Assembly: GCA_916610825.1 (NCBI GenBank)
Contig: OU744449.1
Coordinates: 21,049,344 to 21,113,343, forward strand
DNA length: 64,000 bases
Direction: 5' to 3'
Source: Haliclystus octoradiatus
Taxonomy: Eukaryota; Cnidaria; Staurozoa; Stauromedusae; Haliclystidae
Of this stretch, positions 47,698 to 63,392 are shown one piece after another (position 1 is the first letter of the stretch; every line of letters begins with the position of its first letter). The notes beneath the pieces were generated by a model. The model saw only the letters and a program-made list of their open reading frames with translations, ran no database searches and was not told where the DNA came from. The translations under genes were made by a program, and so were the position numbers.

Positions 47698-47876
47698 TCA
47701 TCCTTTGTACCCAATAGTTTTGAATTTACTCAAGTCTCCTTTTATTCGAAGAAGTGAGATACGCTCATGTGAATGTTTCATGGATAATTTTTCAACTCTG
47801 GCAAATATATCAATGTTGAATGTTTCAATCATCTTCATTTGAATCTCGTCATTGTTCGCAAAAGCCTCTGAGTTCC
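47698..47876 (-). CDS. Channel gene exon r: cytoplasmic tail and stop
   Basis: Terminal exon, phase 1 start, 58 residues then TGA. It is charged (F-A-R-V-E-K-L-S-M-K-H-S, then I-S-L-L-R-I-K-G-D) and has no recognised domain. An AATAAA signal lies on the minus strand about 220 bp downstream. Confidence 0.75.
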
Positions 47877-62800: not shown

Positions 62801-63392
62801 TCTGCTGTATCGATTATGCCCTTTTGTAATTCTCTCTAATCACCCACTGGAATATTAATTTGAATTCAATTTTATGTTTTGATACTTACCTATCAGTATT
62901 AACATTGTTAATAATTCATGACAGAGTGCAGTATACATTCTGATGAGAAATGAGTGCATTATAATGACATGCTATGGCGAATTTCTTACTTGTACAGTTT
63001 CCATAAAAACATTCTCCTACTTCTTTTCTTTCATCACTACAACCATCTACGCATGTACATACTCGTAATTGACGATTCCTTGTGCCCATTCCACAAGTCG
63101 CACGTCCGATAGTTTCACATTCTCCCCATAATGACCATTGATGGCTGAGATTCTCGAAGTCTAAAATAATTTTGACATGGAATAGATACTATTTCGATCT
63201 AAGAGTTACATGTTACATTTGCTAACTAACATCTTATAAACCTACCTTGACAAGACATCGATGAGCTGCATTTTTCGATCTCTGTTGGCTCTTCATTACA
63301 TCGATCTGGCTCTGTACACATGCGATATCTAGTCTTGATACCCTGACCGCATTCAGCTGAACAATCACTCCAAGGGTACCATTGAAGCCACA
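47698..63392 (-). CDS. TSP1-SEA-FN3-glutamate-receptor-like potassium channel, 3' part, 18 exons
   Basis: Exons (high to low): 63246-63392, 62990-63160, 62582-62752, 61639-61812, 61458-61564, 60383-60444, 59589-60034, 58931-59221, 56324-56629, 55994-56227, 53374-53633, 52627-52721, 51522-51678, 51012-51062, 50726-50792, 49651-49901, 48807-48972, 47698-47876. Every junction has AG/GT and matching phase, and the joined frame is open for 1,111 residues to a TGA at 47698-47700. Domain order is four TSP1, SEA, three FN3, then S1, M1, P-loop, M2, S2, a C-terminal TM and a roughly 60-residue tail. The P-loop reads TTVGYGD, a potassium filter, inside iGluR topology. Known relatives of that combination are bacterial GluR0 and rotifer AvGluR1. 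No LIVBP-like amino-terminal domain is seen; adhesive modules take its place. The inferred product is a plasma-membrane ligand- or adhesion-gated K+ channel. The 5' end is outside the window. Ligand and gating are unknown. Confidence 0.85.
48807..48972 (-). CDS. Channel gene exon q: final transmembrane helix
   Basis: Phase 0 to 1. An acidic linker (D-I-D-G-L-S-D-D-E-G-I-D) precedes a helix, V-F-G-W-I-L-L-M-A-I-L-I-G-L-V-W-V. This corresponds to iGluR M4, which GluR0 lacks. Its presence makes the topology eukaryotic-like despite the K+ filter. Confidence 0.85.
49651..49901 (-). CDS. Channel gene exon p: S2 core
   Basis: Phase 1 to 0, 83 full codons. A helix (F-E-L-L-N-F-L-I-D-K-D-V-D-A-I-L-I-D-V) precedes Y-V-K-P-Y-G-F-G-M-V-I-S. 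This mirrors the iGluR S2 sequence in which an acidic residue (F-L-x-E-S) contacts the ligand amino group and G-Y-G-I-G follows. The acidic position is kept as D in A-I-L-I-D-V. It ends with a helix that should run toward the last TM. Confidence 0.75.
50726..50792 (-). CDS. Channel gene exon o: S2, second part
   Basis: Phase 0 to 1, 22 codons. M-A-A-L-N-G-S-F-E-K-N-F-I-V-R-R-N-G-I-I-P-E. It has clean AG/GT sites and joins in phase to both neighbours. No catalytic or binding residue can be assigned. Confidence 0.6.
51012..51062 (-). CDS. Channel gene exon n: start of S2
   Basis: A 17-codon phase 0-0 exon: G-E-L-L-L-I-E-S-S-K-Y-E-G-V-Q-N-K. The pattern (hydrophobic strand, S-S, Y-x-x-V-Q) suits the V-G-x-V-x-G-S region that starts S2 in iGluRs. 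Support comes from clean splice sites and phase. Confidence 0.65.
51522..51678 (-). CDS. Channel gene exon m: rest of K+ filter and inner helix M2
   Basis: Phase 2 to 0. It completes the filter as G-Y-G-D-I-T-P, followed by R-S-V-K-A-R-L-F and an inner helix with glycine hinge candidates (F-W-T-F-S-G-L-V-I-T-S-I-V-I-G-S-I-A-T-T). Y-G-D-x-x-P is the standard outer-mouth motif of K+ channels. The helix takes the place of iGluR M3 but lacks the S-Y-T-A-N-L-A-A-F motif. Confidence 0.92.
52627..52721 (-). CDS. Channel gene exon l: pore helix and first half of K+ filter
   Basis: Phase 0 to 2, 31 codons plus GG. It encodes A-L-F-V-G-F-W-C-A-F-T-T-M-T-T-V-G. F-W-x-A-x-x-T-M-T-T-V-G is the pore helix and filter start of potassium channels. 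The exon ends inside the filter glycine codon. Confidence 0.92.
53374..53633 (-). CDS. Channel gene exon k: end of S1 and transmembrane M1
   Basis: Phase 1 to 0. The first half (E-E-A-L-K-Q-A-I-S-P-N-A-H-I-F-L-P-I) matches the iGluR stretch where A-D-I-A-V-A-P-L-T-I-T is usual. Then comes an F-Y-T-S-G-I-S-like segment (E-E-D-S-T-M-L-F-I-T-R-K) and a hydrophobic helix (W-P-I-M-L-I-S-F-L-I-T-V-I-A-G-I-I-L-L-F) that is M1. The donor is GTAAGT. Confidence 0.8.
55781..55910. repeat. (CA)n microsatellite
   Basis: About 125 bp of nearly pure CA on the plus strand, with one CT interruption near the right end, in the channel-gene intron between the S1 exons. Long VCVCV open frames across it are artefacts. 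Confidence 0.97.
55994..56227 (-). CDS. Channel gene exon j: iGluR-like S1 segment, first half
   Basis: A 78-codon phase 1-1 exon. After a C-A-C-P linker it has K-P-R-L-Y-L-D-L-Y-D-G-N-V-K-G-T-F and then Y-I-E-M-M-I-E-S-V-C. This resembles the iGluR S1 pattern of a strand followed by a helix (G-x-x-x-D-L-L-E-x-I-A). Assignment rests mainly on the downstream channel core. An alternative is a degenerate periplasmic-binding-like lobe without ligand. Confidence 0.65.
56324..56629 (-). CDS. Channel gene exon i: FN3 domain 3
   Basis: A 102-codon phase 1-1 exon. FN3 landmarks are V-T-I-G-W-N-S (strand B), F-T-G-Y-K-V-T-Y (strand C), S-L-Q-I-N-N-L-P-L-N (strand E turn) and E-E-D-G-P-K-S near the end. 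It is the membrane-proximal FN3, directly before the ligand-binding-like S1 segment. Confidence 0.85.
58931..59221 (-). CDS. Channel gene exon h: FN3 domain 2
   Basis: A 97-codon phase 1-1 exon with the best FN3 signature in the gene: A-P-S-R-P-P-T start, strand B tryptophan (I-I-F-W-D-D), Y-S-L-R-Y-R-Q in strand C, L-L-P-E-K-F-Y-D-F-D-V in strands E/F, and G-D-G-P-S-E before the end. The acceptor has a long pyrimidine tract. Confidence 0.9.
59589..60034 (-). CDS. Channel gene exon g: end of SEA (GSV motif) plus FN3 domain 1
   Basis: Phase 2 to 1, 148 full codons. The first residues after the junction give S-E-G-S-V-I-T-D-F-T-V-L-F, the SEA strand-turn-strand signature; autoproteolytic SEA domains cut at G|SVVV. 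After L-L-Q-G-M-L-E-S-G and L-E-I-S-G-G, an FN3 domain begins at A-P-I-I-T-S-L. It has the conserved W of strand B (V-D-W-D), the Y of strand C (F-L-I-F-Y-K) and Y-x-V-R-V-A-V near its end. Fusing the SEA end and FN3 in one exon fixes their order. Confidence 0.8.
60383..60444 (-). CDS. Channel gene exon f: SEA domain, central part
   Basis: A short exon (phase 0 to 2, 62 bp) encoding I-S-S-S-M-V-E-A-G and a segment ending C-S-I-N-S-F. It bridges the SEA helix to the strand that carries the cleavage-type motif. Acceptor TTTTCAG, donor GTATGT. Confidence 0.65.
60983..61023 (-). ncRNA. Hammerhead ribozyme, copy 4 (channel-gene intron)
   Basis: A 41-nt type I hammerhead on the sense strand of the channel gene, in the intron between the first two SEA exons. 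Read 5' to 3' on minus: stem I ACCGU, core CUGAAGA, stem II GCGC-UACA-GCAC (one C-A mismatch), GAA, stem III ACU-CUG-AGU, cleavage nucleotide A, stem I ACGG. All core nucleotides are present. The sequence just 3' resembles that after copy 3. Confidence 0.75.
61458..61564 (-). CDS. Channel gene exon e: start of SEA domain
   Basis: Phase 1 to phase 0, 35 full codons. It contains the SEA N-terminal strand pattern (EIRITSLEYSASLASNTST), followed by a helix start ending T-I-C-D-E. SEA domains normally open with a similar F-R-I-T-N-x-x-Y-S strand. Two further exons complete the fold. Confidence 0.7.
61639..61812 (-). CDS. Channel gene exon d: TSP1 domain
   Basis: A 58-codon phase 1-1 exon with W-S-T-W-T-S-W-S-Q-C-S-T-P-C-G-E-G, then R-Y-R-D-C and six cysteines ending G-S-C. 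It is the last TSP1 module before the SEA domain. The W-x-x-W spacing that is C-mannosylated in other TSP1 proteins is present. Confidence 0.9.
62582..62752 (-). CDS. Channel gene exon c: TSP1 domain
   Basis: A 57-codon phase 1-1 exon. It has a classic TSP1 core, W-Y-P-W-S-S-C-S-A-S-C-G-G-G, then R-V-R-R and six cysteines ending M-R-C-Q-G. This is the most canonical TSP1 repeat in the window together with the next exon. Confidence 0.9.
62990..63160 (-). CDS. Channel gene exon b: TSP1 domain (A-like)
   Basis: A 57-codon phase 1-1 exon. It opens D-F-E-N-L-S-H-Q-W-S-L-W-G-E-C, like the A-type array exons (D-W-E-N-W-S-H-W-S-E-C). It has seven cysteines, one more than a standard TSP1, including a C-T-C and a D-G-C. 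The donor is GTAAGA. Confidence 0.8.
63246..63392 (-). CDS. Channel gene exon a: TSP1 domain (B-like)
   Basis: A 49-codon phase 1-1 exon beginning V-W-L-Q-W-Y-P-W-S-D-C. It has the tryptophan ladder and six cysteines of a TSP1 module (SDC, AEC, RMC, DRC, EKC, MSC). The acceptor is TTTCTCCAG and the donor GTAGGT. The V-W-L-x-W opening matches the B-type exons of the array at the left of the window. More upstream exons must exist, because this one starts in phase 1 with no signal peptide. Confidence 0.85.

Follow-up and report, generated by a model that had tools for sequence, protein, structure and literature searches.

Can a single animal gene join an adhesive ectodomain to a glutamate-receptor-like channel with a potassium filter, and what might such a protein do? 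The question is raised by a minus-strand gene of the stalked jellyfish Haliclystus octoradiatus, a cnidarian, in which TSP1, SEA and FN3 modules are joined to a channel of the order S1-M1-P-M2-S2-TM (TM, transmembrane helix) that carries a K+ filter. Most of the gene lies in a 64,000-nucleotide stretch of DNA (referred to below as the window; C5:21049344-21113343 of a 261.86 Mb, 33-contig genome), and positions given without a contig are those of the window. In our best reading of the sequence, to which we give a probability of roughly 0.7, the product, encoded by one gene of a seven-copy tandem array, is a K+-filter channel whose ectodomain is adhesive and probably cleavable.

Gene structure and module content

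The original prediction had described 18 phase-matched exons, and an initial splice between the same ends (47698-63392, minus strand) indeed gave 18 exons that share a frame, are separated by GT-AG introns and end in a single terminal stop. A Pfam scan of that first translation returned TSP_1 (2e-32), fn3 (1.3e-16), Ion_trans_2 (1e-13) and SEA (30.0 bits; cut-off 26.4). In the revised model one of these exons (N) is dropped and another (Q) shortened, and the total rises to 23 exons (17 inside the window and six upstream) encoding 1625 residues with one terminal stop; the 5′ end of the gene is at C5:21122142, 8.8 kb past the window edge, rather than at 63392. Of the upstream exons, all on the same strand and splicing in phase, four are TSP1-like, one encodes a C-type lectin (Lectin_C, 2.3e-13), and in the first (C5:21121551-21122142; L009 9552-9901 plus L010 1-242) an ATG is followed by a hydrophobic stretch resembling a signal peptide. 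From its start the product runs through this signal-like stretch, an unknown domain of about 175 residues encoded by the first exon and without a Pfam match, a C-type lectin, eight TSP1-like modules, SEA, three FN3 modules and the channel. TSP_1 (six stretches), Lectin_C, SEA, fn3, Ion_trans_2 and Lig_chan all score above their Pfam cut-offs in the 1625-residue product; fn3 appears as three stretches when the window ectodomain is scanned alone versus one in the full-length scan. Pfam, exon reading and hydropathy thereby recover the predicted fusion of TSP1-SEA-FN3 to S1-M1-P-M2-S2-TM with TTVGYGD, but the ectodomain is larger than had been described, with the lectin and four more TSP1-like modules.

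The rejected candidate exon N (51012..51062, minus strand) is probably intronic: it is found in none of the paralogs, and once it is omitted, exon M continues into exon O in phase 0 with the spacing seen in homologs. A longer exon Q, starting at 49065, was also rejected, comparison with paralogs giving a start at 48972 and an end at 48807. A long (TG)n repeat occupies 55780-55905, within the J-K intron.

The same module order recurs in paralogs and relatives

On sequence grounds the exon structure is not a product of chance, because six paralogs, where read, and cnidarian proteins from several genera repeat its order. The window gene and these paralogs lie in tandem at C5:20.95-21.31 Mb, seven genes of which four are on the minus and three on the plus strand. 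The order TSP1, SEA, FN3, FN3, FN3, S1, M1, P, M2, S2, TM is repeated in the six paralogs where read (paralog exons are only partly covered, those of p1 least completely), and the matched stretches contain no in-frame stop. Ratios of nonsynonymous to synonymous substitution (dN/dS) are 0.12-0.33 between p5 and p6 and 0.08-0.30 between the window gene and p2, p4, p5, p6 and p7 (p1 was left out, three single blocks with saturated dS gave no ratio, and several other dS values exceeded 1.3). Genome-wide, the channel has 87 matches (E <= 1) and the ectodomain 95 (E <= 1e-4); many ectodomain matches are TSP1 repeats that belong to other genes. Further channel matches lie on contigs 1, 2, 5, 7, 8 and 10; four such loci were read (L008, L071, L072, L073), and YGD is present in all four, with FN3 upstream in each of the three whose ectodomain was checked (L071, L072, L073).

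Two neighbouring genes might nevertheless have been wrongly joined, given that introns reach 2.4 kb in the window part and 3.3 kb upstream and that the model was built from genomic DNA and comparison with homologs rather than from H. octoradiatus transcripts. Against such an error stand the order shared by the tandem paralogs and by cnidarian proteins from several genera, an order that the original prediction had proposed seeking in related genomes, as well as two relatives, P0035 and P0045, that carry SEA/FN3 and channel in one unbroken open reading frame. Their contigs, no longer than 4176 and 4678 nt, are best read as transcripts; SEA scores 23.9 bits in P0035, under the cut-off, and in P0045 it is marked by a GSVI motif with no Pfam listing. 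We consider a false join very improbable, and the earlier claim of a single gene holds.

A potassium filter in a glutamate-receptor-like channel

Exons L and M, read directly, contain the TXVGYG filter of K+-selective channels like GluR0 and AvGluR1. The codons ACT ACT GTG GG (52637-52627) are joined to G TAT GGT GAT (51678-51669) to give TTVG/YGD, and it is because an intron splits the filter that an intact-filter pattern has no match in the window DNA. Segment order and hydropathy peaks agree with an S1-M1-P-M2-S2-TM topology, and Lig_chan (PF00060; cut-off 30.8 bits) scores 42.9 bits on the channel alone with exon N included and 38.3 in the full corrected protein. Fold prediction used relatives, among them P0047, whose identity to the window channel is 28% in alignment A2. 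In the relative's predicted model S1/S2 forms a periplasmic-binding clamshell that matches GluR0, AMPA receptors, the AvGluR1 ligand core and many amino-acid-binding proteins, in keeping with the GluR0/iGluR-like fold (iGluR, ionotropic glutamate receptor) originally proposed; a fold search with the model of P0001 returned FN3-bearing chains.

Among 7995 scored candidates the window channel retrieved 28 proteins at E <= 0.01, with an Actinia tenebrosa protein as the wide channel match (E 1.3e-30, 27% identity, 76% coverage); the remainder are mainly pore matches to other K+ channels, together with P0015 and P0021, two bacterial-looking GluR0-like proteins. The Actinia protein, used as query, retrieved 21 sequences, comprising itself, a single cyclic-nucleotide-type channel and 19 relatives. 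At E <= 1e-5 a profile search matched 1041 of the 7988 candidates scored, and the weaker matches may be ordinary K+ channels; the filter is present in 118 of the best 120, whose species-named members are from Cnidaria and two hemichordates (Glandiceps and Saccoglossus, among the matches listed). The genera represented among the named relatives are Nematostella, Porites, Pocillopora, Oculina, Stylophora, Dendronephthya, Actinia and Hydra; stony corals and an octocoral are among the sources.

These data also bear on whether the channel part could be a membrane anchor in a non-conducting adhesion receptor. Delta-type iGluRs offer a precedent, being iGluR-like proteins able to act largely as adhesion scaffolds. 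However, the K+ filter is kept in 135 of the 137 relatives read, and dN/dS across the pore exons is 0.11-0.27 in six pairs, and we regard a non-conducting receptor as improbable. The two relatives that lack the filter are P0091 and P0109; the former, a Nematostella model, is 84% identical to the query region of P0042, and its lack is therefore probably a gene-model fault.

History of the ectodomain

Three main architectures occur among the relatives: ectodomain-free channels, channels with CUB and Ig domains, and channels with SEA and FN3, often with TSP1 (P0104 has EGF repeats). In a quick IQ-TREE analysis of 50 rows, with SH-aLRT support of 95 taken as firm, the window array (7 rows) received 100, the array with P0045 96 and the CUB-Ig group 98, while the SEA-FN3 rows with the array (18 rows) received 87 and CUB-Ig, SEA-FN3 and P0099 together 86; the ectodomain-free rows fall below these and do not form one clade. 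The hemichordates and the bacterial-looking root sit on branches flagged by the program as long, and the root, the deep forks and the placements of P0099 and the hemichordates are unsure. With distant bacterial-like rows as the root, the relatives without an ectodomain branch lower in the tree; the simplest reading, if the root is right, is a channel that began without an ectodomain and gained ectodomains later. The original prediction had placed the adhesive modules where other receptors have a LIVBP domain; no LIVBP/ANF_receptor amino-terminal domain is matched by Pfam in the 1625-residue model, but the history may be one of addition rather than replacement.

A ligand site that probably departs from that of canonical receptors

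If the clamshell is shared with glutamate receptors, is glutamate sensing shared as well? In canonical iGluRs the ligand-binding arginine lies in the S1 motif R-x5-[FY]-[STAG]-x-P. In this form, the looser of the two examined, the motif is present in four of four canonical iGluR loci read in the H. octoradiatus genome (L074-L077), as well as in P0015 and P0021, but is found neither in the window nor in any of the 135 filter-bearing relatives (120 of which have at least 150 residues before the pore). The stricter form detects one of the same four loci and gives an identical result for the family. The arginine test is a motif reading, hhalign of S1 to the outgroup having returned a probability of 0.2 (maximum 100). 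The Lig_chan-Glu_bd profile (PF10613) has no match in the window protein and 13 in the genome, none of them in the tandem array. The canonical loci (L074-L077 and about six other places) stand apart from the array, and the frames of L074-L076 are without a K+ filter. The canonical M3 gate motif of iGluRs is SYTANLA; it occurs in 0 of 137 relatives, with SIATTLT in the window, and the literal motif is equally missing from the four iGluR loci of the genome. Given the missing S1 arginine motif, glutamate gating lacks support; if the channel has a ligand at all, its binding is probably not canonical.

A different receptor for small molecules is also conceivable, one with an amino acid held in the clamshell, as happens in GluR0 and AvGluR1, and with an ectodomain that merely anchors the channel. 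The relative's fold, with its matches to both ligand cores and to many amino-acid-binding proteins, is consistent with this. Amino-acid receptors keep an acidic residue at the S2 Asp place, and here it is D in 51 of 51 rows of alignment A4, aligned with an Asp of P0015; some anthozoan relatives also align an Arg or Lys near the S1 place. Yet the arginine motif is absent throughout the filter-bearing family in both its forms while the looser one is present in iGluRs of the same genome and in both bacterial-looking proteins, and PF10613 matches lie elsewhere. We consider amino-acid gating doubtful, though worth serious consideration.

A candidate autoproteolytic SEA domain

The window protein combines a SEA profile above the cut-off with a GSVVV-like site, the two sequence marks of an autoproteolytic SEA domain, and a GS[VI] motif is kept in 7/7 tandem copies and in 15/15 SEA-class relatives examined. 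According to the available part of one study, SEA domains with GSVVV or GSIVA undergo autoproteolysis, and the cut SEA domains of mucins, Notch and adhesion G protein-coupled receptors (GPCRs) stay joined until force separates them (PMC6954182). The ectodomain is probably cleavable at this domain. A sequence search of the SEA segment against PDB gave no matches.

By analogy with adhesion GPCRs, the channel may then be gated mechanically, force on the TSP1/lectin part separating the halves of an autoproteolysed SEA domain and changing the state of the K+ pore. The conserved GS[VI] site and the force-parted domains just cited speak for this. It would not be the mode of the whole family, since SEA is not among the Pfam matches of the CUB-Ig and ectodomain-free relatives examined. 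We view mechanical gating as a rather unlikely option.

Weighing the receptor-channel reading

Taken as a whole, the receptor-channel explanation would have the N-terminus secreted, with the lectin-like domain, eight TSP1-like modules, SEA and three FN3 modules outside the cell, followed by a two-lobed S1/S2 clamshell interrupted by M1, a re-entrant pore loop and M2, and then by the last TM helix and a short tail. Four subunits would form an inverted, glutamate-receptor-like pore in which K+ passage would be due to TTVGYGD. The TSP1/lectin part would bind matrix or another cell surface; SEA would probably be cut at G-SVI, with the outer part retained by non-covalent contact; and a ligand or pull would alter the clamshell or the FN3 stalk and open a hyperpolarising K+ current. 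Contact would in this way be coupled to K+ flux, as the original prediction had suggested. Directly supported within this picture are the sequence with its modules and exon structure, the selective constraint, the gene family and the fold predicted for relatives, while the signal peptide, the tetramer, the K+ current, adhesion, cleavage and gating are inferred.

Several observations weigh against this explanation. The SEA score falls to 28.5 bits in the full corrected protein, near the cut-off of 26.4, and relatives match SEA weakly. Six TSP1-like exons were scanned singly: four pass, TSPd scores 21.3 against a cut-off of 21.6, and exon B has no match. Lig_chan is below its cut-off in several relatives (P0001 25.9, P0029 30.2, P0042 29.2, P0035 28.5), and S1 has no significant alignment to the bacterial-looking outgroup. 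The predicted folds are those of relatives rather than of the window protein, and the fold match puts bacterial proteins that bind glutamine or other amino acids level with GluR0 to within 1 Z. The derivation of the gene model from DNA, mentioned above, belongs here as well.

Comparison with known systems

GluR0, the cyanobacterial K+-selective glutamate receptor, differs from the window gene, which is an animal gene with introns, an extra TM helix, a large adhesive ectodomain and no S1 arginine motif. AvGluR1, the rotifer K+-filter iGluR, is unlike the window protein in having a eukaryotic iGluR architecture, with no TSP1, SEA or FN3 mentioned in the available part of a 2025 review, which names GluR0 and AvGluR1 as K+-filter glutamate receptors (PMC12332018). 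It is activated by amino acids, and is described as highly atypical, in the portion available of a 2025 eukaryotic iGluR phylogeny (PMC12226733). AMPA, kainate and NMDA receptors have their topology and overall fold in common with the window channel and its relative; the window protein differs from them by its K+ filter, by having no detected LIVBP/amino-terminal domain, and by lacking both the S1 arginine motif and a PF10613 match. A functional analogy is offered by GPR110, GPR116 and GPR126, in which an adhesive ectodomain and cleavable SEA precede a membrane effector (PMC6954182, in the part available), but that effector is a seven-TM GPCR with no homology to the window ion channel.

The closest counterparts in class, (TSP1)-SEA-FN3-K+-filter proteins, are Nematostella LOC5519017, LOC5521005 and "PTPRQ", Stylophora "contactin-3-like" and Dendronephthya "sidekick-2-like"; the cnidarian class members compared are 22-28% identical to the window channel, and their N-terminal modules are D8C-like (below cut-off), EGF or F5/8-type where the window protein has a lectin. 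Database names of relatives are "uncharacterized" or misleading, as with P0050 (Cubilin), P0069 (Potassium voltage-gated channel subfamily F member 1), P0041 (PTPRQ), P0038 (contactin-3-like) and P0046 (sidekick-2-like). The open-access literature, searched by title and abstract (subscription papers and preprints lay outside this scope), yielded no description of these cnidarian proteins; six gene identifiers had no match in open-access papers; and the main text of a 2018 metazoan survey (PMC6307864) does not mention fibronectin, thrombospondin or GYGD. The original statement that no such animal protein had been described stands to that extent, but relatives across Cnidaria and in two hemichordates are already in databases, unnamed or misnamed, and the novelty is the recognition of the class.

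Feature coordinates and neighbouring sequence

Table 1. Exons and motif of the gene inside the window (window coordinates).
Feature	Position	Strand	Evidence
Exon A, TSP1 module (phase 1-1)	63246..63392	-	Pfam TSP_1 44.2 bits alone
Exon B, TSP1-like module	62990..63160	-	57% identity to p6 exon; no Pfam match alone
Exon C, TSP1 module	62582..62752	-	Pfam; 70-85% identity in paralogs p4-p6
Exon D, TSP1 module	61639..61812	-	Pfam; 45-64% identity in paralogs p2, p4-p6
Exon E, SEA part 1	61458..61564	-	Pfam SEA; present in paralogs p2, p4-p7
Exon F, SEA part 2	60383..60444	-	Reading frame; in p2, p5, p6, p7; weak in p4 (E 0.45)
Exon G, SEA end and FN3-1	59589..60034	-	42-76% identity across six paralogs
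SEA motif GSVI, putative GSVVV/GSIVA-like autoproteolysis site	60019..60030	-	Motif described in available part of PMC6954182
Exon H, FN3-2	58931..59221	-	Pfam fn3; 48-78% identity across six paralogs
Exon I, FN3-3	56324..56629	-	Pfam fn3 (ectodomain alone); 36-62% across six paralogs
Exon J, S1 first half, cysteines CxC...CxxC	55994..56227	-	Cysteines invariant in alignments A2, A3
Exon K, S1 second half and M1	53374..53633	-	Hydropathy peak 3.03; paralogs
Exon L, pore helix and filter first half (TTVG)	52627..52721	-	TTV ending in 7/7 tandem copies
Exon M, filter second half (YGD) and M2 (= iGluR M3)	51522..51678	-	YGDITPR read in 5/7 tandem copies (corresponding places of p1, p2 matched in genome search)
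Exon O, S2 start	50726..50792	-	Paralog comparison, gene model
Exon P, S2 core, invariant Asp (LIDV)	49651..49901	-	hhalign to bacterial-looking P0015; D in 51/51 rows of A4
Exon Q, S2-TM linker and last TM helix	48807..48972	-	Start set from paralogs
Exon R, tail and stop	47698..47876	-	51% identity in paralog p5

At the other end of the window, positions 1-12713 (minus strand) hold four tandem copies of a two-exon TSP1 unit with splice-like edges and phase 1-1, starting near 12641/10660, 7079/6484, 4279/3523 and 744/152. These units are probably part of the ectodomain of the next paralog (C5:21.02-21.04 Mb), the stalk of which may have grown by exon duplication or may use alternative exons. 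Retroelement-like open reading frames were noted by eye at 11662-12000 (plus), 16282-18002 (minus) and 46164-46523 (minus), resembling pieces of RNase H, gag/integrase and LINE reverse transcriptase.

Implications

K+-filter glutamate-receptor-like channels have many animal relatives, beyond GluR0 and AvGluR1, which bears on the relation of glutamate receptors to K+ channels. The family would also tie cell adhesion directly, at the molecular level, to membrane voltage in animals whose nervous systems are simple. We suggest only tentatively, with the odds against it, that these proteins may form a new class of receptor, self-cleaving adhesion K+ channels in which contact with a cell or matrix, or pull on the TSP1/lectin arm across an autoproteolysed SEA domain, would gate the K+ pore directly, much as G proteins are gated by adhesion GPCRs. 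The Nematostella and Hydra relatives make the proposal testable now. If it is true, an ancient iGluR-like channel of animals, with a K+ filter but no longer with canonical glutamate sensing, would have acquired its adhesive ectodomains in cnidarians, and Haliclystus would afterwards have multiplied the adhesion K+ channel gene in tandem.

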